37,128 nucleotides of DNA from Methylococcales bacterium (lineage in GTDB: Bacteria; Pseudomonadota; Gammaproteobacteria; Methylococcales; Methylomonadaceae), in contig QVQE01000129.1 in NCBI GenBank assembly GCA_003584865.1, forward strand, positions 1-37,128, given 5' to 3'. The position numbers and the translations under genes were made by a program. Below, one piece after another: positions 4,268 to 25,776 of the stretch (position 1 is its first letter; every line of letters starts with the position of its first letter). The notes below the pieces were generated by a model. It was not told the origin of the DNA. It searched no databases and saw only the letters and a list, made by a program, of their open reading frames with translations.

Positions 4268-4293
4268 AGCTATGCTCCTACTGCTCTCTAAAT

Positions 4294-4596: not shown

Positions 4597-4615
4597 AATT
4601 AATCCTGTTTCTTAT

Positions 4616-4651: not shown

Positions 4652-4685
4652 GGCTTGTATTAATAGTCTCTAAATATTAGAAATG

Positions 4686-5350: not shown

Positions 5351-5462
5351 GGTTTGTCTCATATTAATGGGCTTGTAAATTAATAAGGGTCACTAAAAAA
5401 ACGTTCTGAGTTTAACATTTTTCAAATTTAATAATACACCTCATCAAGAATACGTAGTATAG

Positions 5463-5493
5463 GTTGGCTTTTAAGCAATAGCCGTAAACCAAC
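5463..5493. repeat. Intergenic hairpin (GTTGGCTT / AAACCAAC)
   Basis: An 8-bp inverted repeat with one G-T pair (5463-5470 with 5486-5493, 15-nt loop) lies in the 178-bp gap after ureD. Short dispersed palindromes built on GGTTGG...CCAAC are seen between genes in several gammaproteobacteria. It could act as a processing or attenuation signal between ureD and the toxin-antitoxin genes. Nothing else recognisable lies in this gap. Confidence 0.35.
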
Positions 5494-5528
5494 ATGACCG
5501 TAGATATAACCGAGTGTTTAACAACATG

Positions 5529-6350: not shown

Positions 6351-6366
6351 CAACACCTTATGCCCA

Positions 6367-8298: not shown

Positions 8299-9386
8299 GA
8301 ATGACTCTCCTGTAAACGGCGACGCATTAAACCTACCAGGCCATCAGGTAAAAATACAGTAACCAATACAAAAACAGCGCCTAAGGTAAACAACCAAATT
8401 TCAGGCATTAAGCCGGTCAATACTGTTTTGCTATAATTAACCAGCACGGCTCCTATGATTGCGCCATATAATGTTCCTCGCCCACCAATAGCAACCCAAA
8501 TAACGATCTCAAGTGAGTTGAGTGGTGAAAATTCACTGGGATTGATAATGCCCACTTGAGGCACATACAGTGCCCCGGCTATTCCGGCTATCATCGCTGA
8601 GAATACAAAGATCCACAGCTTAAACATCTCAACACGATACCCTAAAAATCGTACCCGTGATTCTTGATCACGAATAGCAGTCACTACTCGGCCCAATTTA
8701 GTATTAACCAACCAACGACACAGTATAAAAACCGCAATCAGAGTGACACCGGATATCATCAACAATAAGGCTCGTAATGCCTCTGACTGAATATTAAAGC
8801 CCAATAATTCTTTAAAATCAGTCAAGCCATTATTACCACCAAAGCCCATTTCATTTCGGAAAAAGGCCAGTAACAAAGCATAGGTCAATGCTTGAGTAAT
8901 GATCGAAAGATAAACCCCCGTGACTCTTGAGCGAAAGGCCAACCAGCCAAATACAAACGCTAACACGCCGGGCACCAACACCACCATCAACAGGGCAAAC
9001 CAGAAATTATCAAAGCCTAACCAATACCACGGCAGTTCTTTCCAATTTAGAAACACCATAAAGTCGGGCAATAAGGGATCACCATAAACGCCCCGCGTAC
9101 CAATCTGGCGCATTAAATACATGCCCATGGCGTAACCACCCAACGCAAAGAATGCACCTTGACCAAGCGCCAAAATACCGCAATAGCCCCAGACTAAATC
9201 TAACGACAAGCCCAACAAAGCAAATGTTAAATACTTACCTAATACCGAGACGGTATAGGCAGAAAAATGCAGAGGAGAGTCAGCGGGAGAAACTAAATTA
9301 CAAAGCGGTATAATAAAACTCACCATAGCGAGTACGATCAATACCGTCGTACCGATTTTATCAGCACCTAATCCTATTAATTTCAT
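8295..9386 (-). CDS. urtC: Urea ABC transporter permease UrtC
   Basis: UrtC is the LivM-like inner-membrane permease of the urea importer. The 363 residues are strongly hydrophobic with eight or more predicted helices. Characteristic stretches are LLGLSLDLVWGYCGILALGQ, an RVTGVYLSIITQALTYA-type helix and IWVAIGGRGTLYGAIIGA near the C-terminus, followed by FLPDGLVGL. It lies 48 bp after urtB and overlaps urtD by 4 bp. Confidence 0.96.
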   Translation of the reverse strand: MKLIGLGADKIGTTVLIVLAMVSFIIPLCNLVSPADSPLHFSAYTVSVLGKYLTFALLGLSLDLVWGYCGILALGQGAFFALGGYAMGMYLMRQIGTRGVYGDPLLPDFMVFLNWKELPWYWLGFDNFWFALLMVVLVPGVLAFVFGWLAFRSRVTGVYLSIITQALTYALLLAFFRNEMGFGGNNGLTDFKELLGFNIQSEALRALLLMISGVTLIAVFILCRWLVNTKLGRVVTAIRDQESRVRFLGYRVEMFKLWIFVFSAMIAGIAGALYVPQVGIINPSEFSPLNSLEIVIWVAIGGRGTLYGAIIGAVLVNYSKTVLTGLMPEIWLFTLGAVFVLVTVFLPDGLVGLMRRRLQESHS

Positions 9387-9434: not shown

Positions 9435-11081
9435 CTACGAGTCCGCCGCCCTACCCTTTTGTGGAAACAAGCCTCTCGGACGTTTCTGGATAAATAGAAT
9501 AATAAAGATAAGGACTAATATTTTCGCTAAAACAGCACCCGCAAAAGGCTCCAGGAATTTATTAGCAATACCCAACACAAACCCAGCCACTAAGGTTCCC
9601 CATAAATTCCCCACGCCGCCAAACACGACGACCATAAAGGAATCGACAATATAAGCCTGTCCCAGATTGGGGCCCACATTGGTAATCTGACTTAAGGCCA
9701 CCCCCGCCACCCCTGCAATGCCTGATCCCAAACCAAAGGTCATGGCATCTACTCTGGAGGTTGGGATACCCATGGCTTTAGCCATATTTCGGTTTTGAGC
9801 AACAGCTCTTACTTCAAGACCTAAACTGGTGCGTTTAAGAATCTGCAACAGCAACACAAATACTATTAAACAAAAGACCAGGATATAAAAGCGATTCCAG
9901 GTCAGTGACAAGAAATCATTAACCTGCCAGGAGCCACTCATCCATTCTGGCGTTGCTACACTCCGGTTTAAGGGTGAAAAGATAGACCGTACACTTTGCT
10001 GAAGTATTAAGCTGACACCAAAAGTAGCCAGTAACGTCTCTAAGGGTCTACCATACAGAAATCGAATGATTCCTCTTTCAATAGCAATGCCCACCAAAGC
10101 AGAAATAACAAAGGCGGCGGGAATGGATAACAGCACTGAAAAGGCTAAATTATTAGGCATCAATTGCTGCATAACGTAAGTGGTATAAGCACCTAGCATC
10201 ATTAATTCGCCATGTGCCATGTTTATAACACCCATTACGCCAAAGGTGATGGCTAATCCAATAGCGGCCAATACTAGAACGGCACCTAAACTAAGACCAA
10301 AAAACACCGTTTCTATTGAACTGTAAAGTTGTAATCGGGTATTGATATTAATTAACGCCGCTTTTGCTGTATTTCGGATATCAATATCTGACTCTACAAA
10401 ATTTCCTGCCTCATCCTTTTCGACCATAGCATTCAGTCGGTTAACGACATCCAGACTGTTCACTTCCTTTAAGGCATCGATTGCATTGATGCGGAGTGAT
10501 TTATCACTACTGTTCATATCTTTTAACAAAAATACAACTTTTATGGCTTGCTTAACTGTCTCATCCTTCTCAACGCCTTCACGCGCTTTTAAGATAGCTA
10601 AGGCACTTTCATCCTCTTCATTTCCCATCGCTTTAACAGCGGCTAAACGAATAGCAGGGTCATCTGAACTTAATTGTAATTGCCCAATGATTTTCCTTAA
10701 TGAAACTCTAAGTTTGTTGGTTAAGTTGATCTTGCCAACATCTGTGCGCTCAACAGCTCCCTTTGCAGTTCCTGTTATGGCATCACGAATATCATAACCT
10801 TGGTTATTATCAGCACCGATCACTAGAGAGTCGTCTGATTTAAGTATAAAGAGTTGACCATCCAGCAGTGCCTGCAAAATCGTCAAACTGGAACTGCCGT
10901 TATCGGCTAGTTGAATAATGGCTTGCTCACGTTCAGCCATGGAACCTTGCTTTAAATTAGTTAACGCATTAAGCAAGAGTTGTTGCTTTGATACATCCTG
11001 ATCGCCATGAATGGCTAGCGAAAACACCAGCATTAAACAGGCAGCCAGTCGACAGTATCCTTTAATTGATTTCGCCTTCAT
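9435..11081 (-). CDS. urtB: Urea ABC transporter permease UrtB with long N-terminal domain
   Basis: UrtB is the LivH-like permease. Only residues from about 255 to 548 form the membrane domain (GVINMAHGELMMLGAYTTY, VVVFGGVGNLWGTLVAG). Before it lies a signal peptide (to about residue 26) and a soluble region of about 225 residues built of helical, HEAT-like repeats (EEDESALAILKAREG, KSLRINAIDALKEVN, DIRNTAKAALI). The region would face the periplasm. Long UrtB forms of this kind are known in Proteobacteria, so this is a variant and not a fusion error. GGAG precedes the ATG by a few bases. It is separated from urtA by 99 bp with a hairpin. Confidence 0.94.
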   Translation of the reverse strand: MKAKSIKGYCRLAACLMLVFSLAIHGDQDVSKQQLLLNALTNLKQGSMAEREQAIIQLADNGSSSLTILQALLDGQLFILKSDDSLVIGADNNQGYDIRDAITGTAKGAVERTDVGKINLTNKLRVSLRKIIGQLQLSSDDPAIRLAAVKAMGNEEDESALAILKAREGVEKDETVKQAIKVVFLLKDMNSSDKSLRINAIDALKEVNSLDVVNRLNAMVEKDEAGNFVESDIDIRNTAKAALININTRLQLYSSIETVFFGLSLGAVLVLAAIGLAITFGVMGVINMAHGELMMLGAYTTYVMQQLMPNNLAFSVLLSIPAAFVISALVGIAIERGIIRFLYGRPLETLLATFGVSLILQQSVRSIFSPLNRSVATPEWMSGSWQVNDFLSLTWNRFYILVFCLIVFVLLLQILKRTSLGLEVRAVAQNRNMAKAMGIPTSRVDAMTFGLGSGIAGVAGVALSQITNVGPNLGQAYIVDSFMVVVFGGVGNLWGTLVAGFVLGIANKFLEPFAGAVLAKILVLIFIILFIQKRPRGLFPQKGRAADS

Positions 11082-11180: not shown

Positions 11181-12479
11181 TTAAAAGTTTTGTCCTGAAC
11201 ATTTTTTAGTTTTGGTATTGTAGTTACCGCAATTAATAGGCGCTGTCCAATCAGCAATGATGGGTTTACTTTCTGGTAAGAAATCAGACCAGGCATCACC
11301 ATCCACCAAGGTATTGGTTTGCCAAACTGTCAATAACTGACCATCGTCTTGAATTTCACCAATTAACACGGGTTTGCTGATGTGATGGTTAGGCAACATT
11401 TTAGAAGTACCGCCCGTCAGGTTGGGATATTCAACACCGATAATCGCTTTTTGAACCGCAGTTGGATCAGTTGTACCGGCTTTCTCAACTGCTTTAACCC
11501 ACATGTTGAAACCAATGTAATGGGCTTCCATTGGATCATTCGTTACGCGCTTTGGGTTTTTAGTGTACTCATGCCATTTTTCAATGAAGGCCGCATTTTT
11601 AGTGCTATCAACACTCATGAAATAGTTCCAGGCCGCTAAATGACCGACTAACGGCTTAGTGTCCATGCCCGATAACTCTTCTTCTCCCACTGAAAAGGCA
11701 ATAACGGGAATTTTTTCAGCAGAAATCCCTTGGTTACCTAATTCTTTATAGAAAGGAATGTTAGCATCACCATTAATAGTAGAAACCACTGCCGTCTTTT
11801 TACCCGTAGAACCAAACTTTTTAATGTCTGCTACGATACTTTGCCAATCAGAGTGTCCAAAGGGTGTGTAGTTGATCAGGATATCTTTTTTAGCAACGCC
11901 TTTAGATTTTAAATACGCTTCTAAAATTTTGTTGGTGGTTCTTGGATACACATAATCAGTTCCCGCCAATACCCAACGTTTTACTTTTAGGTCGTTCATC
12001 AAATAATCAACGGCAGGAATCGCTTGTTGATTAGGCGCTGCACCGGTATAAAATACGTTTTTAGATGACTCTTCGCCTTCGTACTGAACAGGATAAAACA
12101 GCAAGCCATTTAACTCTTCAATAACCGGTAATACTGATTTACGAGATACAGAAGTCCAGCAACCAAAGATTGCCGCCACTTTATCTTTGGTTAATAACTC
12201 TCGGGCTTTTTCAGCAAATAAAGGCCAGTTAGAAGCCGGATCGACTACCACAGCTTCCAGTTTTTTACCTAACAACCCCCCTTTTTTGTTTTGTTCATCA
12301 ATTAACATCAACATGGTGTCTTTCAATGTCGTTTCACTGATGGCCATGGTGCCAGATAGAGAGTGCAATACACCGACCTTAATAGTATCTTCGGCTCTTA
12401 CAGTACCCGAAGCGACTGTTAATAATGCCATCGCACCGACAATACTTAATTTACGTAATTTTTCAGAAATTCTGTTCAT
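11181..12479 (-). CDS. urtA: Urea ABC transporter substrate-binding protein UrtA
   Basis: UrtA is the periplasmic urea-binding protein of the importer. The 432 residues start with a signal peptide (cleavage probable after Ala29, VRA-ED). The mature part has the type I periplasmic fold of the FmdD/UrtA group: DTIKVGVLHSLSGTMAISE, AAIFGCWTSVSRKSVLPV, LLFYPVQYEGEESS and TDYVYPRTTNKI are nearly diagnostic for urea/short-chain amide binding. Two cysteines near the C-terminus may form a disulfide. It follows the porin by 27 bp and precedes urtB. Confidence 0.96.
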   Translation of the reverse strand: MNRISEKLRKLSIVGAMALLTVASGTVRAEDTIKVGVLHSLSGTMAISETTLKDTMLMLIDEQNKKGGLLGKKLEAVVVDPASNWPLFAEKARELLTKDKVAAIFGCWTSVSRKSVLPVIEELNGLLFYPVQYEGEESSKNVFYTGAAPNQQAIPAVDYLMNDLKVKRWVLAGTDYVYPRTTNKILEAYLKSKGVAKKDILINYTPFGHSDWQSIVADIKKFGSTGKKTAVVSTINGDANIPFYKELGNQGISAEKIPVIAFSVGEEELSGMDTKPLVGHLAAWNYFMSVDSTKNAAFIEKWHEYTKNPKRVTNDPMEAHYIGFNMWVKAVEKAGTTDPTAVQKAIIGVEYPNLTGGTSKMLPNHHISKPVLIGEIQDDGQLLTVWQTNTLVDGDAWSDFLPESKPIIADWTAPINCGNYNTKTKKCSGQNF

Positions 12480-12506: not shown

Positions 12507-13754
12507 TTAGATTTGCCATTGAAAGCCCAGTAGAAGAGAGCTGACCTTATCGCCTGTTGCAGTAGAAGTATAATTAAGCCCTTTAGTATTCATATCACCG
12601 TAAATGTAGTTCAAAGAGATCACTGCGTTATGGCCGTCGATAACATAATTAATACCAGTTTGGTATGAGTTACGGTTAGAACTACCATTTGGATTGATGT
12701 TAACGTAACGTAAATAAGGTTGAACCAAACCGATACCAATTTTTTGTGGGAACATGTACATCGCGCTAACATCATAAGCTTGGCCAGCAAACATTTTGAA
12801 GTTAGCAACGCCAGGAGGAAGAGGATTATTTTGAATAGCATGATAATTTCCACTGATGCCATAGTTTTTATAATCGCCTTCTAAAGTTAATACGGCTTTA
12901 TTAGGTAATATTTTTTCCATCAACACGTCAGCACCCGTGCCACGGAAGTTACCTGGATTCACAGTAGAACCCGCACCTTGGCTTTGATATTGATTATTGA
13001 GCGATACCGTTAAAATATCGCCACCTTTACCGTAATAAGTGCCTGATGTGTAATAGCCTGGGTTTTTCTCGACTTCCCAAAAGTTATACGATATTTTTTG
13101 TGCAAAAGAAGGATTGTCACTGGCATTCGCACCGCCTCTTAAGCCACGGAAGAAACCAACGGCATATTGAAAGCGATCATTAAACGCTGCACCCCAAACT
13201 GTCGCACCATCATCACGACCAAAAGAGCCTGCCGATGTACCATTGTTTTGAATAGTCGTATTATAATCAGCAGGCTCAAAAGGTGTCCCTGCACCAAAGG
13301 TTTGATAAATACCGCTATAAAACGGTCCGTTCATTTCCCGACGCTCGCCAGGTACCAACATACGACCTACCCAAAGATTGGCATAAGCGTTGTATTCAAC
13401 TTTACCAATAGCATCCAAGATTCTAATTTCACCACTACCAGAACCACTCGTCGTAGAATCGGTATTAAACTCAACTTTAATATATTTGTGAATTTGACCA
13501 TTAAGATAGATACGAGCATTATCCAGATTAAAATTATTGCTCCATTGATTACCGGTTGCGCCCGCTGCACCCTCAGTTGCCTGAAAGCTACTGCGTAAAC
13601 CTAAGCCTACACTAACCCATTTGGTGTCATCAATCTTGAAAGTGGCTCCTGCATATGAATTGGTCGAATGACCTGCAAACAGGGCAGTTACTACTGCAGT
13701 GCAAAGTAGGGACTTATTAAAGCCACCTACTGCATGTTTAATATAACTTTTCAT
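12507..13754 (-). CDS. Outer-membrane porin of the urea/amide uptake operon (FmdC-like)
   Basis: The 415-residue product has a signal peptide (cleavage likely after SYA at residue 35) and mature sequence made of alternating beta strands with many Asn, Gly and aromatic residues, ending in FQWQI. ARIYLNGQIHKYIKVEFNTD and LWVGRMLVPGERREMNGPF are typical of the OprO/OprP-like porin fold. A strong ribosome-binding site AAGGGG precedes the ATG. It is the first gene of the urt transcript, which recalls the FmdC porin of amide/urea loci in methylotrophs; the name FmdC is inferred from context and overall type. It would let urea or short amides cross the outer membrane under nitrogen limitation. Confidence 0.85.
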   Translation of the reverse strand: MKSYIKHAVGGFNKSLLCTAVVTALFAGHSTNSYAGATFKIDDTKWVSVGLGLRSSFQATEGAAGATGNQWSNNFNLDNARIYLNGQIHKYIKVEFNTDSTTSGSGSGEIRILDAIGKVEYNAYANLWVGRMLVPGERREMNGPFYSGIYQTFGAGTPFEPADYNTTIQNNGTSAGSFGRDDGATVWGAAFNDRFQYAVGFFRGLRGGANASDNPSFAQKISYNFWEVEKNPGYYTSGTYYGKGGDILTVSLNNQYQSQGAGSTVNPGNFRGTGADVLMEKILPNKAVLTLEGDYKNYGISGNYHAIQNNPLPPGVANFKMFAGQAYDVSAMYMFPQKIGIGLVQPYLRYVNINPNGSSNRNSYQTGINYVIDGHNAVISLNYIYGDMNTKGLNYTSTATGDKVSSLLLGFQWQI

Positions 13755-13863: not shown

Positions 13864-13890
13864 CGTCAGATAACTATCAGTTATTTGACG
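13864..13890. promoter_or_regulatory. Candidate operator: 11-bp dyad in the divergent region
   Basis: CGTCAGATAAC (13864-13874) and GTTATTTGACG (13880-13890) form an inverted repeat with one mismatch and a 5-nt centre. It is 110 bp from the porin start and about 57 bp from the start of the divergent secreted protein gene, where a regulator of both transcripts would bind. The binding protein is unknown. No convincing sigma-54 site (GG-N10-GC) was found in either direction. Confidence 0.5.
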
Positions 13891-13946
13891 TATACCCCTC
13901 ATAGAAGGGTTATCGTAGAGTATGAATATATTAATTGGGGGATGTT

Positions 13947-14735
13947 ATGGCTTTGAAAAAATTAACAAAATTATCTTATACAATCTGCCTGCTGATCTTT
14001 ACCAGCATGGGATCTTCAAATGTACAGGCAATAAATGTCAGTGCTTATGATAAATCTTCAATAACGGCTATCGAATTCAAACTTGATAATGAAAACGGGC
14101 AGCAAGTGGGTACCGCCCAAGCACAAAAGCAAATCGCTGAACGGGTAATAAAAAATCTGGCTGAATGGCACTTTCCTGTTAAGCAGTCCGATAGCCATTA
14201 TTCTCATACGCTAACCGCTAAACTAGATAGCATTACGCACCAAAGCACGCCCGTTGGCTTCTCTTTTAGCCAAGGCAATGCTGACCCACGCTCACCTGAA
14301 TTTCAGAAAGCCGATGTTTTACCGATCAGTTGTATTCTAAAAAAAATTGGAACGAATGAAGCCCCTCTTGAGCACAATATGACTTTTAGCACCCAGTCAT
14401 TATTTTCAAATGGAAATCAAGTGCAAGACATTGATAAATTAGTCGATCAAATTACAACCACTTGTTTTAATCTACTGGATGATTTAAAAATCCCTGTAGC
14501 TACCCAATCGATTGAAGCAATTAATTTCAAGCCTGCCTGGATGCCAAATGTACAAGTTGTTGTTAAACCCGTACCTAAGTTATCACCTAAGCCAATTAAT
14601 ACTGAGAAGCCAGATGAAAAAAACACCAACGTAACCAAGCCAGTTAATGAACCTGAGCCTGAAACAGATAAAGAATTGATTATTAACAATCAGGGTTCCC
14701 CGCTAATTCTTCACATGGGGCACGAACGTCGCTGA
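13947..14735 (+). CDS. Secreted protein of unknown function next to sensor kinase
   Basis: I do not recognise this 262-residue protein. It has a clear signal peptide (MALKKLTKL, hydrophobic core, cleavage near VQA), so it is periplasmic or surface-bound. A globular part of about 165 residues with two cysteines is followed by a low-complexity linker rich in Pro, Lys, Glu and Thr (residues about 205-240) and a short C-terminus LIINNQGSPLILHMGHERR. The ATG at 13947 was chosen because GGGGG precedes it; an upstream TTG at 13935 is less likely. It lies 72 bp before the NCS1-kinase gene on the same strand and faces away from the urt operon, so it could be an accessory or ligand-handling partner of the sensor. 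Confidence 0.8.
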   Translation: MALKKLTKLSYTICLLIFTSMGSSNVQAINVSAYDKSSITAIEFKLDNENGQQVGTAQAQKQIAERVIKNLAEWHFPVKQSDSHYSHTLTAKLDSITHQSTPVGFSFSQGNADPRSPEFQKADVLPISCILKKIGTNEAPLEHNMTFSTQSLFSNGNQVQDIDKLVDQITTTCFNLLDDLKIPVATQSIEAINFKPAWMPNVQVVVKPVPKLSPKPINTEKPDEKNTNVTKPVNEPEPETDKELIINNQGSPLILHMGHERR

Positions 14736-14807: not shown

Positions 14808-17800
14808 GTGAAACCTGATATACATCAACATATCACCAATGTCCGTCGTGAATATAATTCCTTTGTTGCCAATGAAACAATGGAAGATTACGCCTTACGG
14901 TACGCACCCCGTAGTTTCAGGAAATGGTCTGAGTTTGAAGTTGCTAATGCAGCTTTAGGCTCAACCGCCTTTCTGGTACTGGAAGCAATTGGTGGTTTTT
15001 TATCGATTAACTATGGGTTTGCCAATGCGGTATGGGCCATCATCATTGTATCAATAATTATTTTTATCACCAGCTTACCCATCAGTTATTACGCAGCCCG
15101 CTATCATATTGACATTGATTTGTTAACCAGAAGCTCGGGCTTTGGTTATATTGGCTCTACCGTCACCTCATTAATTTATGCTTCGTTTACCTTTACGTTA
15201 TTTGCACTCGAAGCATCAATTATGTCACTTGCTATCGAACTGTATTTTCACATTCCATTACCTATAGCGCATGTAATCAGTGCTATTTTGGTTATTCCGT
15301 TGGTGACATTCGGTATTACCACGATCAGCCGTTTGCAATTATGGACTCAACCCATCTGGTTACTTTTGCTCGTCTCGCCTTATGTTGCAGTAGCCATAAG
15401 CGAACCGGATGCACTGACTATATTAAAAGATCATTTTTGGTTGGCTAGTACAGCACAAGGCTTCGACTGGATGCTTTTTGGTGCAGCAGCTACAGTCGCT
15501 TTCTCAATGATGGCACAAATTGGCGAACAAGTCGATTTTCTACGTTTTATGCCCGATAAAACACCAGCCAATAATATACGCTGGTGGTGTGCAATGATCG
15601 CAGGTGGACCCGGCTGGGTTATCTTTGGAGCCGTCAGACAAATACTGGGCGCTTTATTGGCCGATTTAGCAATCCGGCATGGCATCAGTTCTGAGCATGC
15701 GCATGAACCCACACAAATGTATCTGGTCGCTTATAAAGAAATTTTTGAGAATCCCAGATTGGCACTGGCTGCAACCACTCTGTTTGTGATTCTGAGTCAG
15801 ATTAAAATCAATGTGACCAATGCTTACGCAGGCTCTCTGGCGTGGTCTAACTTTTTTTCCAGAATTACCCACAGTCATCCTGGGCGCGTCGTATGGCTGT
15901 TATTTAATGTCTTAATTGCACTATTGTTAATGGAATTTGGTGTTTTTGGTGCCTTAGAAAAAGTCCTGGGGCTATTTTCTCACATGTCAATCGCCTGGAT
16001 ATGTACGATTGCGGCAGAGTTGATGATTAACAAACCATTGGGACTCAGTCCAAAAATAGTCGAATTTAAAAGAGCTTATTTAGCCGATCTTAACCCTGTG
16101 GGCATTATTTCTACACTATCGGCCTCGTTAATATCAATATTATCTTATACAGGACTCTTTGGAAATACGCCTAAAGCTTTTTCAGGCTTTATTGCCTTAG
16201 GACTCGCTTTCATACTGACACCTGCCATTGCCTGGTTAGCGGGTGATAAGCATTATCTAACTCGCGACCGTAATGAGAATAATCCTAAAACACAAAATAA
16301 ATGTTCTATCTGCGAAAATGAATTTGAACATGAAGATATGGCTTATTGCCCTGCTTATGCGGGTGCGATCTGCTCACTTTGCTGTACTTTGGATGCACGT
16401 TGTTTAGACATTTGTAAAACCGGTTTTCGTTTCGATGATTATCTAAAAGCCCTGGCTAAGCGTCTATTACCGTCAAGAATCAACATGACGGCTAAATTAC
16501 GTTTACTCCGTTTTGCTTTGATGTTTTTATTCTTATCGATCTTGACTGGCATTTTTATCAGCATCATTTATTATCAGGATTTATTAAGTGTTCAGAATAA
16601 TTTTGATGCCTTTCAATTATTACTGAAGAACTTCTTTAAAATCTATGCGTCGCTGTTAGTCTTTATCGGTTTATGTACCTGGTGGCTTATTTTGAATGCC
16701 GAAAGTCGGCAAGTGGCTCAAAAAGAAACCGCTAAACAAACCCAACTCTTGTTGCTTGAAATTGAAGAACATAAAAAAACGGACATTAAGTTACAAGAAA
16801 CCATGAGGATAGCCAATTCAGCAAATCAAGCTAAAAGCCGGTTTCTCAGTAATATGAGCCATGAGATTCGCTCACCGCTCAATAGTATTGTTGGATACTC
16901 TTACATTTTACAAAAAGATCCCAGTATCCCTGAACATCGAAGACAGGCCGTGGATACCCTTAAACGTAGTGGCGAACATTTGTCCGCATTAATTGAGGAT
17001 ATACTGGATATTGCCCGTATCGAAGCACGCAAATTTGAATTACATTATGATCCTTTTGACTTTCATGCACTCATTGAACATCTCGTACATGTTTATAAAG
17101 CACAGGCAGAGGATAAAGGGTTATATTTTCGTTGCCAGATAATCAATACCTTACCCAAACGCATCAAAGCAGACGAGAAACGGGTGGGTCAAATTTTAAT
17201 CAATATATTAAGTAATGCTATTAAGTTTACTCAAACAGGAGGCATTGTATTAAGTATTAGCTACAGCGCAGGTGTTGCCAAATTTGAAATAACGGACACC
17301 GGTGATGGTATCCATGAACAACAATTACAGGATATTTTTCAACCATTCACCCGCTTAAATACGGTCACAGGTAATGCCGTTTCTGGTAGTGGCTTAGGTC
17401 TAACCATCAGTAAAATTTTAACTGAAATTATGGGGGGAGAACTGGTGGTCAGTAGTCAAGTGGGGGTTGGATCGACGTTTACGGTACGCTTATTTTTGGC
17501 TAATTTGGGTACAGAGAGTGAACAATACAAAATTGAAGATATTACCGGTTATCAAGGCCGACGCCAAAGAATTTTAGTCGTTGACGATCAGTTTGATCAT
17601 CGTGAGTTAATCAAATCAATTTTGGCTCCGCTTGGCTTTATCATTGAGGAAGCCTGCTCAGGCGAAAATTGCCTGTTGAAAGTAGAGCAACTTAAACCTA
17701 ATCTTATTATTCTCGACTTAGCCATGACCGGGATAGATGGCTCAGAAACAACTCTTCAATTACGTGACAGAGGTCTAGTTGTGCCCATTATTATTCTTAG

Positions 17801-18164
17801 TGCGAATGCTTACCCTTCTGACCGGCTGGTTGCTATGAATGCAGGCGCTAACGACTTTCTAGCTAAACCCATTCAGGTTCAGCATTTACTCAATAAATTA
17901 AAATTACACTTAGGCTTGATCTGGATTTTTCAAACCGATAGTATGGATACCTCTGACTCATCCTTGGATGAAGTCATGCTAAGCCCCCCCGAAGAGATTA
18001 TTGAAAAGCTCAGACATTTTGTTCGAATTGGGGATCTCTTGGGTCTCAATAAACACCTTGATATTTTAGTCAAAAATCAACCTGAATATCGTCCCTTTAT
18101 CTCAAGAGTTAAGGCGCTGATAAAAGAATTTCGTATGGCTGAAATTAAAAAACTATTGAGTTGA
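14808..18164 (+). CDS. NCS1 permease-histidine kinase-receiver fusion sensor
   Basis: A 1118-residue inner-membrane hybrid. Residues about 35-480 are an NCS1-type transporter domain (purine/cytosine/hydantoin/allantoin family) with about 12 helices. Residues 499-536 hold eight cysteines (499, 502, 514, 522, 525, 526, 532, 536), perhaps a metal or Fe-S site. Two further helices (about 567-590 and 612-630) and a coiled coil follow. The kinase has the H-box SHEIRSPLN with His685, N-box Asn803, G1 DTGDG at 830-834 and G2 GSGLGL at 860-865. The receiver has Asp926/927, phospho-acceptor Asp970, Ser998 and Lys1020. A helical tail (1060-1118) ends the protein. The start is GTG with no strong ribosome-binding site. 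It likely senses a nitrogen compound, possibly urea or an amide, and relays phosphate to a regulator not encoded nearby. All catalytic residues are intact; ligand and output are inference. Confidence 0.9.
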   Translation: MKPDIHQHITNVRREYNSFVANETMEDYALRYAPRSFRKWSEFEVANAALGSTAFLVLEAIGGFLSINYGFANAVWAIIIVSIIIFITSLPISYYAARYHIDIDLLTRSSGFGYIGSTVTSLIYASFTFTLFALEASIMSLAIELYFHIPLPIAHVISAILVIPLVTFGITTISRLQLWTQPIWLLLLVSPYVAVAISEPDALTILKDHFWLASTAQGFDWMLFGAAATVAFSMMAQIGEQVDFLRFMPDKTPANNIRWWCAMIAGGPGWVIFGAVRQILGALLADLAIRHGISSEHAHEPTQMYLVAYKEIFENPRLALAATTLFVILSQIKINVTNAYAGSLAWSNFFSRITHSHPGRVVWLLFNVLIALLLMEFGVFGALEKVLGLFSHMSIAWICTIAAELMINKPLGLSPKIVEFKRAYLADLNPVGIISTLSASLISILSYTGLFGNTPKAFSGFIALGLAFILTPAIAWLAGDKHYLTRDRNENNPKTQNKCSICENEFEHEDMAYCPAYAGAICSLCCTLDARCLDICKTGFRFDDYLKALAKRLLPSRINMTAKLRLLRFALMFLFLSILTGIFISIIYYQDLLSVQNNFDAFQLLLKNFFKIYASLLVFIGLCTWWLILNAESRQVAQKETAKQTQLLLLEIEEHKKTDIKLQETMRIANSANQAKSRFLSNMSHEIRSPLNSIVGYSYILQKDPSIPEHRRQAVDTLKRSGEHLSALIEDILDIARIEARKFELHYDPFDFHALIEHLVHVYKAQAEDKGLYFRCQIINTLPKRIKADEKRVGQILINILSNAIKFTQTGGIVLSISYSAGVAKFEITDTGDGIHEQQLQDIFQPFTRLNTVTGNAVSGSGLGLTISKILTEIMGGELVVSSQVGVGSTFTVRLFLANLGTESEQYKIEDITGYQGRRQRILVVDDQFDHRELIKSILAPLGFIIEEACSGENCLLKVEQLKPNLIILDLAMTGIDGSETTLQLRDRGLVVPIIILSANAYPSDRLVAMNAGANDFLAKPIQVQHLLNKLKLHLGLIWIFQTDSMDTSDSSLDEVMLSPPEEIIEKLRHFVRIGDLLGLNKHLDILVKNQPEYRPFISRVKALIKEFRMAEIKKLLS

Positions 18165-18416: not shown

Positions 18417-19889
18417 CTACAACATACACCCTGTTTCCAGAAACTTGACATGCATATCAAACGCATGATGTAAATCATGCGCAATGTGTCCAGGTTTACA
18501 GCTTGAAAGGTATTGATATAATACTTCCTTATACATGGGGTGCACGCAGTTTTCAATAATGGAATGAGCACGCTGGCTAGGCGACAATCCTCTCAAGTCA
18601 GCAATGCCCTGCTCCGTAATAATCACCTTGACACTGTGCTCACTGTGATCGACATGCGTACACATCGGAACAATAGACGATATCTTGCCACCCTTGGCGG
18701 TAGAGGGTGCCATAAAAACAGACAGGTAAGCGTTACGCTCAAAATCGCCACTGCCACCAATACCATTCATTAAATCTGAACCTAAGACATGTGAAGAGTT
18801 TGCATGTCCATAAATATCAAATTCCAGGCCCACATTCAAGGCAATCACACCCAAACGTCTTATTAGCTCGGGATTATTTGAAATCTCCTGCGGCCTGAGA
18901 ACAATTTTATCGCTAAAAAAGTCCATGTTATCAAAGATGGTTTGCAGTTTACCGGGTGTAATGGTCAAACTGGATGCACTGATGCCCGTGACCTTACCCT
19001 CCAAAATTAAATCCACAACCGATTCTTGAAGCACTTCCGAAAACATAGTGAATTTTGGTATGTCTGGATTTTTACCCAAGGTATCCATCACCGCATTATT
19101 AATATTACCCACACCACTTTGAATCGGCAAAAAGTCTTTAGGAATACGTCCAGCCTTTAGCTCTTTCAGTAAAAACGTTTCAACATGGTGTGCTATCAGT
19201 ACACTGGTCTCATCATTTTTGGTAAACGCCTCAATTTGATCGGCCTGATGGGTTTCGACAATACCTATTATTTTAGCTGGATCAATCTGCACATAAGGCT
19301 TGCCTATTTTATCCATCGTGCCATAAAGTGGAATAACCGGACGCTTAGGCGGATTAGGCAAGGTCACGTTATCGGCGAACTCGGTAATTCGGGAGGAAAA
19401 ATAACTATTTCTTTCAATAATGATCTTTTTTGCCCGCTCCAAAAAAGTCGGCGAATTACCAATACCCGATGTCAAAAAGACTCGACCATCAGGGGTAACA
19501 TCAACCGCCTCGATGACAGCCGCCTCTATTTCACCAAAGAATCCGGCACGTAGCATTTGCGCAACTTCACCCAAATGCATATCCACAAACTCAACTTCAT
19601 TATTGTTAATTGCCTTACGCATACCGGACGCTGACTGATAAGGCGCACGCCAGCTAACACATTTTGCAGCCGCCAGCGCATCATCAACCTGGGCGCCCAC
19701 AGAAGCACCGGTCATTAATCTTATGGCAAAATCCTCTCCTTTTTCGTGCAATGCCGTCGCTCGCTGAGCCAGTGCAAGAGGGATTACTTTTGGAGAACCT
19801 GCGGCTGTAAAGCCACTGAAAGCAACCATGTCATTATGGTTAATAATACTGGCCGCTTCTTCTGGTGTTAATAGGGGGTATTGAGTCAT
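18417..19889 (-). CDS. scpC: Propionyl-CoA:succinate CoA-transferase (acetyl-CoA hydrolase family)
   Basis: The 490-residue enzyme belongs to the class I acetyl-CoA hydrolase/transferase family (Cat1, AarC, YgfH/ScpC). Visible features are SGFTAAGSPKVIPLAL near the N-terminus, QSGVGNINNAV at about 257-267, the segment TMFSEVLQES with the likely catalytic Glu285, and the CoA-binding NGIGGSGDF at 375-383. In the E. coli sbm operon the fourth gene ygfH (scpC) moves CoA from propionyl-CoA to succinate, closing the cycle. Here scpA, meaB and scpB lie on the same strand upstream, so this assignment is favoured, but about 1.9 kb of toxin-antitoxin DNA separates scpB from scpC. Succinyl-CoA:acetate transferase activity is an alternative. 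Confidence 0.85.
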   Translation of the reverse strand: MTQYPLLTPEEAASIINHNDMVAFSGFTAAGSPKVIPLALAQRATALHEKGEDFAIRLMTGASVGAQVDDALAAAKCVSWRAPYQSASGMRKAINNNEVEFVDMHLGEVAQMLRAGFFGEIEAAVIEAVDVTPDGRVFLTSGIGNSPTFLERAKKIIIERNSYFSSRITEFADNVTLPNPPKRPVIPLYGTMDKIGKPYVQIDPAKIIGIVETHQADQIEAFTKNDETSVLIAHHVETFLLKELKAGRIPKDFLPIQSGVGNINNAVMDTLGKNPDIPKFTMFSEVLQESVVDLILEGKVTGISASSLTITPGKLQTIFDNMDFFSDKIVLRPQEISNNPELIRRLGVIALNVGLEFDIYGHANSSHVLGSDLMNGIGGSGDFERNAYLSVFMAPSTAKGGKISSIVPMCTHVDHSEHSVKVIITEQGIADLRGLSPSQRAHSIIENCVHPMYKEVLYQYLSSCKPGHIAHDLHHAFDMHVKFLETGCML

Positions 19890-19974
19890 TTGATAATCCA
19901 GTCACAGAATAAGAATCTTATTGCCCAATAATTTATCATCAATTATTCTATAGCCCAATTGCCGAAGTTTTATT

Positions 19975-20220
19975 TTATGGGGCATCAATGCTTAGCTCAA
20001 CAAATGGCTCATTTGCACGTTCAATGACAAGCTGCTTATCCTCTAAATCTTGAAGTCTCGCTAAAAGGTTTTCATAGAGCTTGGCGGGTAATAAGAAGGA
20101 TTCTGGTCTATTGTGATTGAGAATAGCACTGGGGCTTTCATTTGTTTCCTTAATTATAGAAGCATAATTACGCTTTAACTCTGTCACACTGACAGTTTTA
20201 TTGGCATACACGGTATCCAT
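19975..20220 (-). CDS. Solitary Phd/YefM-type antitoxin
   Basis: The 81-residue product starts with VSVTELKRNYASIIKE, the typical DNA-binding N-terminus of Phd/YefM antitoxins, followed by a helix-rich C-terminal half (LYENLLARLQDLEDKQ). AGGCG lies upstream of the ATG. No Doc, YoeB or RelE-type gene follows within the 85 bp before scpC, so its toxin is missing. It could be an orphan repressor, an antitoxin acting on a toxin elsewhere, or the start of decay. It sits just upstream of scpC on the same strand. Confidence 0.8.
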   Translation of the reverse strand: MDTVYANKTVSVTELKRNYASIIKETNESPSAILNHNRPESFLLPAKLYENLLARLQDLEDKQLVIERANEPFVELSIDAP

Positions 20221-20566
20221 AATAACGCCTATCTGATGCTAATTTAAATTATAAATATAGCATTTTTAGGTGGAGGCTATTATTATTTTTAGTTACAGCA
20301 AATTGCTCGATGTTTGTCGTGCTCCGTTGTACAATAGCTTAAAAATGTTGAGGTAACTAATAGGCTTTCAGAAATTAAATTTTCAAAATTACTTGCTACA
20401 GATATTATAAAATAAAGGTAGTTTGTAGGGATTGGAAATTATTTATCTGAAAAACTATAGGTGAACACGTATTCTATTCTTAGCACTTGAAGAAATTTTT
20501 AATGAAGATTGGGCTTTCCTTGTAAGGTCAAACTAAAATCTAATGACTAATGTAACCACTTAAGTT
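20221..20566. other. Non-coding AT-rich stretch
   Basis: I see no gene, RNA or repeat that I can support in these 346 bases. All frames are broken and the base composition is very AT-rich. It is the left portion of the insertion that separates scpB from scpC. Confidence 0.5.
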
Positions 20567-20757
20567 ATGAGAACAATTAAATTTACAGAGTGGCAGGACG
20601 ATTCTTTTTTATTGGTTTTCTAAATGAATACTCTGATTATCAAACTCAGGGCATGACAAAATAGGAGCTTATAGAAAACTTGAAAGACTTGTTAAATGAT
20701 ATTGAGTTGGAATACATTCCTTATATTCGTAAAGTTGAAGAGTTATTAGTGACGTAA
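20567..20757 (+). pseudogene. Broken hicB-like antitoxin gene
   Basis: Joining two frames gives a HicB-like protein: MRTIKFTEWQDDSFF, then IGFLNEYSDYQTQGMTK, then ELIENLKDLLNDIELEYIP and IRKVEELLVT. A run of six T near 20607-20615 seems to have lost one base, shifting the frame to an early stop. A TAG also interrupts the restored frame before ELIENLKDLL. This is a HicB partner-type antitoxin (small, RNase H-like fold) that can no longer be made. The TAA end abuts an ATG starting a hicA-like remnant (TAAATG). Confidence 0.8.
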
Positions 20758-20826
20758 ATGAAAAGACGCAATTTAATTAAAGCAGGTAGCCGCAGTCGCA
20801 GTAAGACCAACAAATCCCACCATTAA
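20758..20826 (+). pseudogene. hicA-like toxin gene remnant
   Basis: The first eight codons MKRRNLIK match the start of HicA mRNA interferases (MKRRDLIK). After that the frame turns into unrelated residues and stops after 22 codons; the catalytic GSH motif and the double-stranded RNA-binding-like body are absent. It starts directly at the hicB stop, the normal hicB-hicA order of this subtype. Confidence 0.65.
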
Positions 20827-21097
20827 CCCAAATGGTAATATAGCACCACAGGCACACGACAAAACAGCGTACAATGCCGATGATACCAAACGTATCTGTA
20901 AGCAAGACCAAAATTCCGTGATAAGCCTAATCAATTTTACGGGTCTATGGGTAGCAAAATACAGGATATGTCATGAGCGCATGTCAAGTAACCCAGAGTG
21001 CCGAGATTACTATAAAGGTATCTTACATCAGCAGTACCTAGCATGTATAAAGACTCGTACGAAACAGGTATTTTTTAATTTAAATTTAAAATTATAA
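20777..21097 (+). other. Unidentified open stretch without a start codon
   Basis: About 106 codons are open in one frame, from just after a TAA at 20774 to a TAA at 21095, overlapping the hicA remnant. The translation looks protein-like (TNPTINPNGNIAPQ, later LWVAKYRICHERMSSNPECR and YYKGILHQQYLACIKTR) with several Cys, but there is no good start codon or ribosome-binding site at the beginning; the first ATG gives only 38 residues. It may be the decapitated end of a secreted protein gene joined to the hicA start. I do not recognise the family. Confidence 0.3.
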
Positions 21098-21239
21098 GGG
21101 CGGATGGAGTCATATAGGGTTTGCCCCGTATTGCAAAAAAATTTAATTCGTAACATAAAGAAATATTGCACCCCTATATCTGGTCTTGGTTGCGGGTATT
21201 GGATTGTTTTTTATATTGTGCGTTATCAGGAAAAACTTT

Positions 21240-21458
21240 ATGACACAGTTACTTAATCAAGCATTTCAAGAGGCGTCCAAACTTCCTGATATGCAACAGA
21301 ATATAATTGCACGATGGTTGCTGGATGAATTATTGGCAGAAAAAAAATGGGATTCGTTATTTGCCGAGTCTGAAGATTTTTTAGCAAGTCTTGCAGATGA
21401 GGCTTTAAGTGAACATCGCGCTGGTAAGACTAAACCTTTGAATTTAGATGCGCTGTGA
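21240..21458 (+). CDS. Antitoxin of a RelE/ParE-type pair
   Basis: The 72-residue product is acidic and helical (LNQAFQEASKLPDMQQNIIA, then a C-terminal DEALSEHRAGKTKPLN). This resembles small antitoxins that pair with short RelE/ParE-type toxins. AGGA precedes the ATG at 21240 by about 8 bp; the longer frame from 21186 is not needed. It overlaps the toxin gene by 4 bp (GTGA). The pair is on the plus strand, opposite to the scp genes on both sides. Confidence 0.82.
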   Translation: MTQLLNQAFQEASKLPDMQQNIIARWLLDELLAEKKWDSLFAESEDFLASLADEALSEHRAGKTKPLNLDAL

Positions 21459-21724
21459 TTTTGCATACGACAGAAAAATTTTGGAAGTTGTATTCTGCTT
21501 TGCCTGTGGATATTCGGAAGCAGGCAAAAATTGCATATATTCAATTTAAAAATAATCCATATCACCCAAGTTTGCAGTTCAAGCGAACTCATTCCAGTAA
21601 GCCAGTTTGCTCGGTACGTATCAACATCGACTATAGAGCGGTGGGCATTATTGATAATGTTGACATATTGTGGTTTTGGATTGACTCCCATAGAGAATAT
21701 GAAAAAATACTTCAAAAATTATAG
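21455..21724 (+). CDS. RelE/ParE-family toxin
   Basis: The 89-residue protein has the short RelE/ParE fold pattern: an N-terminal helix (KFWKLYSALPVDIRKQAKIA), then strands with KPVCSVRINIDYRAVGII and the conserved end DILWFWIDSHREYEKIL. Toxins of this group either cleave ribosome-bound mRNA or poison gyrase; which applies cannot be told here. The start is GTG inside the antitoxin stop. It converges with scpB, with a strong terminator in between. Confidence 0.87.
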   Translation: MILHTTEKFWKLYSALPVDIRKQAKIAYIQFKNNPYHPSLQFKRTHSSKPVCSVRINIDYRAVGIIDNVDILWFWIDSHREYEKILQKL

Positions 21725-21728
21725 CAAA

Positions 21729-21756
21729 GCGGGACGGAATAAATATCCCGTCCCGC
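21729..21756. terminator. GC-rich hairpin between converging toxin and scpB
   Basis: GCGGGACGG (21729-21737) and CCGTCCCGC (21748-21756) form a perfect 9-bp stem around an AT-rich 10-nt loop, placed between two converging genes. It probably terminates or blocks transcription from both sides, limiting read-through from the scp operon towards the toxin-antitoxin DNA. T-rich tails are weak. Confidence 0.7.
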
Positions 21757-21787
21757 ATCATTCACTAATCCAGTCATTGATAAGAAT

Positions 21788-22582
21788 CTATTTTCCAATA
21801 AAATTAGGCTTTCTCTTCTCAAAAAAAGCCGTCAGTCCTTCGGTATAATCAAGACTGTCATAAACGTATCGTCTAAGTCCTTGAATCCGCTCAAACTCAT
21901 CAGGATTGATGGCATTTGCCTCACACAACACCCGCATCTCCTCTTTGATAACGGCAATGGCAAGCGGGGCTTTTTCACAGATAAGGTTGGCAATGGCGAG
22001 GGTTTTACTTTCCAACTCCTCATCAGGGACAATATGATTTAATATACCAATCTTTAAAGCCTGTTCAGCAGCAAAGGGAGTCGCGGTAAAAATAACTTCT
22101 TTCATCACATGCAAGCCTGCATCGCGAATCAAATTATGAATACCCACTACATTATAAGGCACCCCCAGATTAACCGGCGTCATGGCAAAGGTGGATTTGT
22201 TACTGGCAATAACGATATCGGTACTCATGATCAATTCAAAAGCACCGCCCCACACACTCCCTTCAATCATAGAGATAACCGGTTTCGGATAACGCTGAAT
22301 GGTTCGGGTTAAAATACGCAACGGATCTTGATAGCTCAACGGCAAAGGATCACGCTTGGCATTGGGCAGTTCACTGATATCATGACCGGATGAGAATACT
22401 TTGCTGCCTTTAGGCGCTCGTAAAATAACACAGCGAATCTCAGGAACATCCAGTTCTACCAATGCTTTCAGGATATCTTTAATAAAGCATTCACTCAGGG
22501 CATTTAACTTTTTAATATTATTAAACTCAATAATACCGACTCTGTCTTTGAGTTCAACCTTTACAAATTCATAATTATTCAT
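21788..22582 (-). CDS. scpB: Methylmalonyl-CoA decarboxylase (crotonase family)
   Basis: The 264-residue product closely resembles E. coli YgfG/ScpB, a crotonase-fold enzyme that decarboxylates methylmalonyl-CoA to propionyl-CoA. Shared stretches include KVFSSGHDISELP with His67, SMIEGSVWGGAFELIMS forming the oxyanion hole, TPVNLGVPYNVVG with Tyr143, GILNHIVP, and the C-terminal FFEKRKPNFIGK. The His and Tyr correspond to the residues implicated in YgfG. It overlaps meaB by 4 bp. Converging toxin genes lie downstream, separated by a strong hairpin. Confidence 0.93.
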   Translation of the reverse strand: MNNYEFVKVELKDRVGIIEFNNIKKLNALSECFIKDILKALVELDVPEIRCVILRAPKGSKVFSSGHDISELPNAKRDPLPLSYQDPLRILTRTIQRYPKPVISMIEGSVWGGAFELIMSTDIVIASNKSTFAMTPVNLGVPYNVVGIHNLIRDAGLHVMKEVIFTATPFAAEQALKIGILNHIVPDEELESKTLAIANLICEKAPLAIAVIKEEMRVLCEANAINPDEFERIQGLRRYVYDSLDYTEGLTAFFEKRKPNFIGK

Positions 22583-23586
22583 TTCAAACAGTCACACGTT
22601 AATTTTTCGGCAATGTATTGACTAACAGTCTCTACGGCGTGTCGTGGTGAAAGCTGATTACTCTCAACACGGGCTTTGGTTTTACGGTACAACTCATTAA
22701 TATCCTGAGTGTTATAAATCATATTGATAATATTTTCCTCAATTTGCCGCTTCATCCAACGACTATCTTGACCCTTTCTTATGGAAGCCACTTTTTCATT
22801 AGCTTCCATCGTGGTATAAAACTTTTCGACCACCTCCCAAATGTTTTCTATCCCTGTATTTTCTCTCGCACTACACGTTAAAACGGGCGCTTGCCATTCA
22901 CTGTATTTAGGCTTCAGGATATGCAAAGCATTTTTAAGCATAGTCTTTGCGACTTGAGCCATTATTTTATTATCACCATCCTCTTTATTGATGATAATGA
23001 CATCAGCTACTTCCATGATGCCCTTTTTAATGCCCTGGAGTTCATCACCTGCACCGGGAATTTGCACTAAGCAAAAAAAATCAACCAGATCAATCATTTC
23101 AATTTCAGATTGCCCGACACCGACCGTCTCAATAAAGACGACATCAAAACCCGCCGCATCGAAAAGAAACGTCAGCTCTCGGGTTCTTCGGCTAGCGCCT
23201 CCTAAGTGCCCCCCCGAAGGAACGGGACGAATAAAGGCGTTATATTCTCTAAGCAACCGAGTCATTCGGGTTTTATCGCCAAGAATGCTCCCCCCACTAA
23301 TAAAGCTACTGGGATCAATAGCAATAATCGCTACTTTTAGACCTCTATTGATTAAATGCATCCCCAAGGCTTCTAATAAGGTACTTTTGCCAGAACCCGG
23401 CACACCGGTAATGCCAATCCGTTTGGCTTTACCTACCAGCGGCATGATCTTATCCAAAATTTCATCAGCCAGTTGATAATGCTTGGAGTGTGTGCTTTCA
23501 ATGATAGTCATTGCTCTGGCCAGCAGGGCGCGATTACCCTTTAAAATCTCTTCGACTATATCATCGGCGCTCATCGCATTCATCAT
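22579..23586 (-). CDS. meaB: Methylmalonyl-CoA mutase-associated GTPase MeaB/ArgK
   Basis: This G3E-type GTPase (YgfD/ArgK in E. coli, MeaB in methylotrophs) guards and reloads the B12 cofactor of methylmalonyl-CoA mutase. The 335 residues contain the P-loop GVPGSGKST at 61-69, [10 protein letters not shown], the switch region [10 protein letters not shown] and the specificity motif NKEDGD. It overlaps scpA (4 bp) upstream and scpB (4 bp) downstream, so mutase, chaperone and decarboxylase should be made together. Confidence 0.95.
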
Positions 23587-25721
23587 GCTTGATTTAATAA
23601 CTCCATCGCTTCACGGACACACTTAATCATCTGGGTTCCTGGCCCGTAGATCTTGGCTACACCGCGTTCAAACAAATAATCATAATCCTGTGGAGGAATA
23701 ACCCCCCCTACGATAACTTTAATATCCCCGCGTCCATAGTCGTGCAATTGTTTAATCAACGCTGGCACCAAGGTCTTGTGTCCCGCTGCAAGCGAGGATG
23801 CTCCCACAAAATGCACATCATTTTCTACCGCCAACTTGGCAATTTCTTCGGGCGTAGAAAACATCGGACTTAAGTCCACATCAAAGCCAAAATCGGAATA
23901 AGCACTCGCAATCACTTTCGCGCCTCGATCATGACCATCCTGCCCCATCTTGGCAATCAGAATCCGCGGGCGACGACCTTCATTTTCGGCATAGTCATCA
24001 ACCAGCTTTTTAATGTCATCAAACTCACGTGCCCCTTTTTCGCTATCATGATACTCTCTGGAAATAACCCCGGTTACACACTCACTCGGTACCAGATAAC
24101 GCCCAAATACCGCTTCCATCGCGTCAGAAATCTCGCCTAACGTCGCTCGAACGCGGGCGGCATCAATGGCGGCTGCCAACAAGTTATCCCCGTCTTTAGC
24201 AACCGTTTGAATGTTTGCCAACGCCGCTTCAACTTTAGCGTTGTCACGGTTTAACTTAATCCTTTTCAAGTTGGCAACTTGTTCCTCGCGCACCGCTTGA
24301 TTGTCGATGTCCATGACCTCAACTGCGTCTTCTTTTTGCAAAGCGTACTTATTAACCCCGACAATCACACGCTTGCCTTGGTCAATCAGTGATTGCGTTT
24401 CGGCTGCCGCCTCTTCAATCATCCGCTTGGGAATACCCAATTCAATCGCTCTAGCCATACCGCCTGCTTCATCGATTTGGGCAATAATTTTACGCGCTTC
24501 CTGAACAATAGTATCCGTCAGTGCTTCAACATAATAAGAGCCTGCCAAGGGGTCTACGGTATTACAAATCTCAGACTCTTCTTGCAGAATAATCTGGGTA
24601 TTACGGGCAATCCGGGCAGAAAACTCCGTAGGCAAGCCCAGTGCTTCGTCATAAGCATTGGTGTGTAACGATTGCGTACCACCTAAAGTGGCAGACAAGG
24701 CTTCGATAGTCGTTCTAATAATATTATTATAGGGATCTTGCTCAGTTAAACTCCAACCCGACGTTTGGCTATGGGTTCGAAGGGCTTTAGATTGCTCATT
24801 GCCCCCTAATTGCCCCACCGCATCACTCCATAGATAACGGGCAGCTCGCAACATAGCCACATTCATAAACAGATTCATGCCAATACCAAAAAAGAATGAC
24901 AAACGAGGCGCAAAATCATCAATTTTAAGACCGGCATTGAGTGCCGCTTTGATATATTCAATGCCATCAGCTATCGTAAAGGCGACTTGCTGAACACAGT
25001 TAGCCCCTGCTTCTCCCATGTGATAACCACTGATACTAATGGTATTGTAGCGGGGCATATTATTTGAACAATATTCAATAATATCAGAAATAATACGCAT
25101 AGAAGGCTTGGGCGGATAAATATAGGTATTACGACACAGATATTCTTTTAAAATATCGTTCTGAATCGTACCCGTCAACAAATCCTGACTCACGCCCTGC
25201 TCTTCTGCAGCCACAATATAAAAAGCCAGAACCGGGATAACCGCACCGTTCATAGTCATTGAAACAGACATTTGCTCCAGAGGAATCTGATCAAATAACA
25301 CTTTCATATCTTCGACACTATCAACGGCCACACCCGCTTTACCAACATCCCCTTCTACCCGTGGATTATCAGAATCATACCCCCGATGAGTTGCCAGATC
25401 GAACGCAACCGAAAGCCCTTTTTGACCCGCTGCCAAATTCTTTCTATAAAACGCATTGGATTCTTTAGCAGTTGAGAAACCAGCATATTGTCTGATAGTC
25501 CAGGGTCTGGCCGTATACATAGTGGCTTTAGGGCCACGAACAAACGGCGAAATACCCGGTAATGAGTCGATAGTCTCTAGATTTTTAGTATCTTCAGCCG
25601 TATAAAGCGCCTTGATATCAATCCCTTCCAGTGTCTTGGAAACCAAATCATCTACTGTCTTACCCATTCTCTTTACTTCAGAATTGGCTAATTTTTTCCA
25701 CTGATCTAATTCCCCATCCAT
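23583..25721 (-). CDS. scpA: Methylmalonyl-CoA mutase (Sbm/ScpA type)
   Basis: This adenosylcobalamin-dependent mutase interconverts succinyl-CoA and methylmalonyl-CoA. It is a single-chain form of 712 residues. The N-terminal catalytic barrel contains [36 protein letters not shown] and the [12 protein letters not shown] segment; the C-terminal B12-binding domain has DGHDRG at about 595-600 with the cobalt-ligating His597. The frame is open to 25769; the ATG at 25721 was chosen because it aligns with the start of E. coli Sbm. As first gene of scpA-meaB-scpB-scpC it would feed a cycle turning succinate into propionate and CO2. Divergent trhP lies upstream. Confidence 0.95.
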
Positions 25722-25776
25722 CTTATGTACCCCATTAAAAAGCGTCAATTTACCTAAAATATATAGCAATGCTTAA

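Follow-up and report, generated by a model that had tools for sequence, protein, structure and literature searches.

A candidate NCS1-derived sensor kinase for urea and short-chain amides in a Methylococcales bacterium and its relatives

Among the closest described systems, CbrA and CrbS are SLC5-STAC histidine kinases, CrbS being described as a hybrid kinase in the parts of the sources available to us (PMC13022988, PMC7096432, PMC5715377). The accessible part of a further report describes an Amt-histidine kinase of Kuenenia stuttgartiensis, in which a nitrogen-compound transporter domain is fused to a kinase (PMC5764959). For amide uptake, the available text on Methylophilus fmdCABDEF names a putative positive regulator and no kinase, with zero occurrences of either “two-component” or “histidine kinase” (PMC10781810). 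In the open-access literature, represented mostly by titles and abstract openings, we found no description of an NCS1-kinase fusion. Here, we analyze a gene for a candidate fusion of this kind, located at positions 14808-18164 (forward strand) of a 37,128-nucleotide stretch from a Methylococcales bacterium (Methylomonadaceae; assembly GCA_003584865.1, contig QVQE01000129.1, positions 1 to 37,128), hereafter the window. We consider it likely that the encoded protein is an NCS1-derived membrane sensor of urea and/or short-chain amides that activates urt or fmd operons.

The reading frame begins with GTG and stays open for 1118 codons with no internal stop. Its kinase part comprises a HisKA domain (residues 675-740, 16830-17027) with His685, a HATPase_c domain (residues 789-897, 17172-17498), and a receiver (REC; residues 922-1031, 17571-17900) with Asp970, all scoring above the Pfam cut-offs, such that everything defining a hybrid histidine kinase is present (HisKA with its His, HATPase_c, and REC with its Asp). 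Preceding these are a permease-like domain (residues 1-485, 14808-16262) assigned to a divergent NCS1 branch by alignment with kinase-free homologues, a module of eight cysteines (residues 497-538, 16296-16421; Cys 499, 502, 514, 522, 525, 526, 532, and 536), and two hydrophobic segments (residues ~560-632, 16485-16703) that, read by eye, we take as transmembrane helices. An earlier note on this DNA had claimed a kinase with its catalytic residues, a receiver with Asp970, and an eight-cysteine linker, all of which the open reading frame (ORF), the Pfam matches, and the residue positions bear out. An AlphaFold2 model of residues 1-660, built from ten sequences, had too low a quality (predicted local distance difference test 42, predicted template modelling score 0.30) to bear on whether the fold is of the LeuT type.

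Related loci, those of the family taken from the better-ranked part of its matching genomes, supplied 144 fused ORFs, and dropping two for being shorter than 800 amino acids (aa) left 142 distinct ones, the window not counted. Two loci, L219 and L083, were left out of the counts: in L219 (8901-10100) the kinase end is readable from near the transmembrane/kinase part, while the upstream frames carry stops and gave no permease match, and L083 is truncated by its contig end. In the alignment that includes the window protein, each of the eight linker cysteines and the HisKA histidine are kept in 143 of 143 sequences, and the receiver aspartate in 134 (with a gap in eight and Asn in one). Nine polar residues of the permease domain were checked in the same alignment (E135, Q237, E240, Q331, K333, N335, N338, Y340, and S343), and all nine are invariant in 143/143.

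Gene neighborhoods were counted for the 120 fused ORFs whose available sequence reaches 6 kb or more upstream (22 of the 142 had less and were dropped), a locus being called linked when a relevant system lay within about 10 kb of the fused ORF. On this basis, 103 of the 120 are near urt, urease, fmd-type (amide-type) ABC, and/or formamidase genes: fmd-type ABC plus formamidase in 48, urt in 30, urt plus urease in 13, urease in five, formamidase alone in four, fmd-type ABC in two, and fmd-type ABC plus urease in one. By our own estimate, with one to three such genes per ~4 Mb, roughly 1-2% of randomly chosen genes would lie within 10 kb of such a gene. In the class and phylum samples (71 ORFs), 24 of the 30 families show the link, and 14 of the 18 class genomes that contain the domain have UrtA-like genes (E ≤ 1e-50), versus 76 of the 351 that lack it (Fisher p 1.5e-6). 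The earlier note had held that homologues showing no link to urea or nitrogen genes would speak against its proposal, and the opposite was found. Its wording, a sensor of urea or a related nitrogen compound, stands as to the urea linkage and is too narrow otherwise; because 48 of the 120 adjoin an amide-type ABC system and formamidase and not urea genes, it is more apt to name urea and/or short-chain amides as the ligand.

A different account would have the permease domain sense a larger NCS1-type solute (a purine, pyrimidine, allantoin, or hydantoin) that yields urea or amides, with urt and fmd serving downstream salvage. Pfam describes PF02133 as a permease family for cytosine/purines, uracil, thiamine, and allantoin, which favors this account; yet the linked genes in those 103 of 120 loci are urea and formamide genes, and 20 profile-scanned neighbors of less typical loci gave one nucleoside transporter (L080) and one PnrA-like binding protein (L117), this being no systematic scan for purine or allantoin genes. 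We regard the larger solute as unlikely. A ureido or amide group is common to known NCS1 substrates, and urea or formamide would therefore be a chemically plausible ligand as well. No residue cleanly divides Urt/Ure-linked from Fmd-linked sensors (the best alignment column was 401), which fits a shared ligand class and is no proof of one; the lack of a separating column, together with the nine invariant polar residues, makes a single ligand class for urea- and amide-linked sensors plausible.

The candidate sensor has a candidate partner. At 126 of the 135 loci with at least 0.7 kb of downstream sequence (seven of the 142 were dropped), a LuxR-type (REC-GerE) regulator is encoded directly downstream of the kinase, with lengths of 311 and 294 aa in two profile-scanned examples, and 103 of the 126 regulators have their presumed contact helix either as RTVNKHLE or in a closely similar form. 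Three of the nine loci without an adjacent regulator are L162, L213, and L214, whose variant fusions are 885-900 aa long, contain a kinase that appears to be non-hybrid (L213 was the one profile-scanned), and have a formamidase nearby. Neither the window nor L002 has the regulator beside its kinase, while two sister genomes (G142 and G184) encode it, at 78-79% identity, on contigs other than the kinase's; in the clade of the window, the regulator gene seems to have moved. The earlier note was thus correct in saying that the window lacks the output regulator, and relatives reveal where it is usually found. Separately, a placement of the regulator next to an fmd system was considered for the sister genomes and is unsupported, their only binding-protein match (41% identical) lying on the kinase's contig.

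Upstream regions point to a conserved operator-like site. A binding-protein gene is the nearest listed upstream gene for 53 of the 142 fused ORFs, and the 46 intergenic regions shorter than 1200 bases were used for a dyad search, in which TACG-N8-CGTA occurred in 37 of 46, compared with no such dyad above 9 of 46 in ten shuffles. From 42 sites, the palindrome ATACGTCA-NN-TGACGTAT was obtained. A matrix was built from these regions, none of which has a kinase at least 70% identical to that of the window or belongs to its subfamily, and it ranks 13876-13893 (ATCAGTTATTTGACGTAT), ~120-140 bp upstream of the porin start, as the top site of the window (10.7 versus 7.1 for the next). The crude dyad with at most one mismatch is uninformative in the window, because it has nine matches versus 8.25 expected; it is the matrix that ranks the site. 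Upstream of subfamily porins, a site scoring at least 10.7 is present in 34 of 35 regions, the window included, at 123-252 bp from the matched porin start, the exception being L001 (score 7.5), while 99% of 175 shuffled regions stayed below 8.6. Five genus genomes each have a single exact occurrence of the site pattern, the match in the window's own genome being the window site, and the pattern is absent from the sixth, G142, whose site differs by one base; a reversed control pattern was found in 0 of the 6. A refined matrix, which includes sites of the window group and is thus partly circular, gave 173 sites scoring at least 14 in 157 loci versus six in 60 shuffled loci, and 160 of the 173 lie no more than 450 bp upstream of a kinase, p266 (described below), porin, binding-protein, or formamidase gene. 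Paired operator-like sites 16 bases apart, perhaps a tandem operator, were noted in L116, L118, L235, L086, L087, and L091, with one scoring copy in the window. By eye only, no sigma-54 site was seen upstream of the porin.

The descent of the permease domain had to be traced through homologues. PF02133 has no match at E ≤ 10 in the window protein and none in its own genome. Two kinase-free homologues of the domain pass the PF02133 cut-off of 23.5 bits, namely L082 (43% identical to the window domain; 31.8 bits) and L218 (27% identical; 36.4 bits), the latter being 82% identical to an annotated cytosine permease; PF02133 did not match two further kinase-free homologues or L071. As judged by alignment, the NCS1 kinship is real but remote. 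Of the “full NCS1-type permease” in the earlier note, full-length homology to the PF02133-matching L082 and L218 stands, and a direct PF02133 match does not. Searches of PDB sequences with the domain, its profile, L218, and L082 returned no transporter among the listed matches, and those of the cysteine module (CRIPT, tetraheme cytochrome c) were weak and are not relied on. Other origins were also considered: an SLC5 origin was rejected because PF00474 has no match in the window protein or its own genome, and an Amt origin because no Amt match was found in the window protein.

Kinase-free homologues also bear on the cysteine module and on what the permease domain does. Across the five compared (L071, the L160 copy, L082, L161, and L218), the full eight-cysteine cluster is present in L071, four cysteines in the L160 copy and L082, one in L161, and none in that place in L218, and given these counts the module looks like a part of the permease tail that is complete wherever a kinase follows. 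Its invariance in the fused ORFs would fit sensing or a metal site, and one could suppose that the permease is a membrane anchor only, with the signal being redox or metal at this module, or general nitrogen status, and the linkage reflecting nitrogen regulation. The nine polar residues checked in the permease domain are equally invariant, however, and two loci in which we found neither urt nor an fmd-type ABC system, L160 and L071, have the predicted operator in the interval separating the kinase from a kinase-free copy of the same permease domain (L071 also has a formamidase within 10 kb), an arrangement that speaks against a mere anchor. We therefore hold the anchor account to be quite improbable. 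Another kinase-free copy, L082, adjoins ureDCEFG.

Comparison across relatives thus shows the domain order, the gene linkage, the partner regulator, and the conserved operator-like site, and suggests how an NCS1-derived sensor of urea and/or short-chain amides might work. The permease domain would bind the ligand, and its conformational change would pass through the invariant eight-cysteine module and the two transmembrane helices to the kinase (His685), with Asp970 acting as an internal receiver. The LuxR-type response regulator, whose gene adjoins that of the kinase in most relatives and has another location in the clade of the window, would then be phosphorylated, a transfer proceeding with no recognized Hpt domain, and would bind the palindrome, in the window at 13876-13893. 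Binding would activate, rather than repress, porin-urtABCDE and probably urease in the window, and fmd/formamidase operons in relatives. For a broader proposal, we see the case as evenly balanced: an undescribed, widespread transceptor family in which an NCS1 branch recognizing urea and formamide, the smallest of the ureido/amide compounds, is gated to a kinase through an invariant eight-cysteine metal module may supply the sensor so far lacking for the uptake operons that formamide and urea induce across Pseudomonadota, and where ABC uptake is lacking may control a kinase-free copy of its own permease domain, sensor and transporter then sharing ligand and ancestry. Both the metal binding and the gating role of the cysteine module are conjectural parts of this proposal.

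Several findings weigh against the urea/amide sensor as proposed here. PF02133 missed 59 of 60 diverse family members at E ≤ 0.01, the single match presumably being L082. Linkage counts are not independent because the loci are related by descent, and 17 of the 120 fused ORFs show no link. Among these 17, L116, L235, and L241 have p266 at the edge of their stretch (two also with a porin), L125 is a second copy with an fmd-type system farther off in the same locus, and L075 has a weaker UrtA-like gene plus UreD; 12 of the 17 are counted as unlinked after inspection of the edges, with varied neighbors in those scanned. As to the operator, the window site (10.7) scores little different from the highest shuffle (10.9), and the weight of the site comes from its position and repetition, not from its score alone. 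In the window's subfamily, all 66 regions upstream of the kinase score 6.1 or less, and eight of ten regions upstream of its fmd-type binding-protein genes score at most 4.5. With the refined matrix, 44 of the 157 loci have no site of at least 14, including the urease-only L081, L189, L215, and L217, the urt- or urease-linked L203 and L206, and the non-hybrid L162, L213, and L214. Finally, the window's own genome (75% complete) gave no orthologous regulator, the best match being 42% over the receiver alone. This last result, with the lack of a regulator beside the kinase in the window and L002, is what one would expect if the system were decaying in this clade, leaving an idle kinase with no regulator. 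Decay seems very improbable to us, as that genome is 75% complete, the two sister genomes retain the regulator on other contigs, the kinase frame runs uninterrupted for 1118 aa in the window and in L001-L003, and the site persists.

Within the window, the genes on the divergent side (reverse strand) include urtA (11181-12479; TIGR03407, 569 bits), urtB (9435-11081; TIGR03409, 434 bits), and urtC (8295-9386; TIGR03408, 451 bits), all above their NCBIfam cut-offs, followed by urtD (7474-8298; ABC_tran and BCA_ABC_TP_C) and urtE (6692-7474; ABC_tran), both named by position. UrtB is long, at 548 aa, and its permease domain is preceded by a HEAT_2 repeat match. Pfam also recognizes the urease genes ureD, ureC, ureF, and ureG (within 491-6356; UreD, Urease_alpha, UreF, and cobW/UreG), among which lie small ORFs assigned to the urease region by position only, including 1791-2219 and 4686-5102. 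The first gene of the urt operon encodes a porin-like protein (12507-13754) that reaches 71 bits against the porin ExtI model, under its cut-off of 150. The porin is not the immediate neighbor of the kinase, because p266 (13935-14735, forward strand; likely start ATG 13947), a gene for an apparently secreted 266-aa protein with a signal peptide judged by eye, sits between them; with that addition, the divergent arrangement with porin-urtABCDE-urease described in the earlier note is confirmed. Pfam gave nothing for p266 at E ≤ 0.001 and a single weak match at E 0.06. In the window's subfamily, 40 of 48 kinases have p266 nearby, versus one of 72 others. The operator-bearing intergenic region is common to p266 and the porin, and p266 may belong to the system. 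Downstream of the kinase, 18417-22582 encodes a succinate CoA transferase (TIGR03458, 708 bits) and a methylmalonyl-CoA decarboxylase (402 bits), possibly forming, with two larger ORFs at 22579-25769, a methylmalonyl-CoA/propionate pathway cluster.

The family extends well beyond the window. Among the sampled genomes, the domain (residues 1-540) has matches in 115 of 201 from the family and 18 of 369 from the class, and a profile of residues 1-660 matches 54 of 398 from the phylum. Eight of the nine nearest loci in a named genome collection are titled Methylococcaceae or Methylobacter and one Alteromonadaceae. In a plasmid collection, 530 records match, 342 of them Klebsiella, and these records often annotate the gene as “ATP-binding protein” and no more; a scan of viral contigs gave eight pattern matches and no relative. 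One Klebsiella plasmid record (L158, 9995-13375) has urt-like genes, a formamidase, and the sensor gene together, then a regulator match that is not in the PLSDB gene table, itself incomplete.

Together, these comparisons offer a candidate sensor, regulator, and 18-bp predicted operator in methanotrophs and other Pseudomonadota, and with them a likely nitrogen sensor of a methane-oxidizing bacterium that is open to direct test. Relative to Methylophilus fmdCABDEF, for which the accessible text names a regulator and no kinase (PMC10781810), the window's family has a kinase with a LuxR-type regulator. With NCS1 permeases (PF02133), the window protein shares remote homology via L082 and L218, and differs in having no direct PF02133 match, in its C-terminal cysteine module and kinase, and in its urea/amide gene context. 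The Kuenenia Amt kinase, as far as its source is available, is alike in joining a nitrogen-compound transporter domain to a kinase and differs in its Amt domain, which has no counterpart among the matches here. CbrA and CrbS are alike, in the available parts of their descriptions, in having a transporter domain fused to the kinase as its input (PMC13022988, PMC7096432, PMC5715377). They differ in their SLC5 and STAC domains, whereas the window protein has an eight-cysteine module, no PF00474 match, and no STAC match among its Pfam matches (Pfam was not checked for a STAC model); they also differ in the surrounding genes, histidine or acetate genes for CbrA and CrbS as far as those descriptions go, and urea/amide genes here. 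If our reading is true, NCS1 joins SLC5 and Amt among the families found in transporter-kinase fusions, with a new linker module. The window protein works like CbrA, CrbS, and the Kuenenia Amt kinase, with a transporter domain as the kinase input, and is by domain content a member of neither kind.

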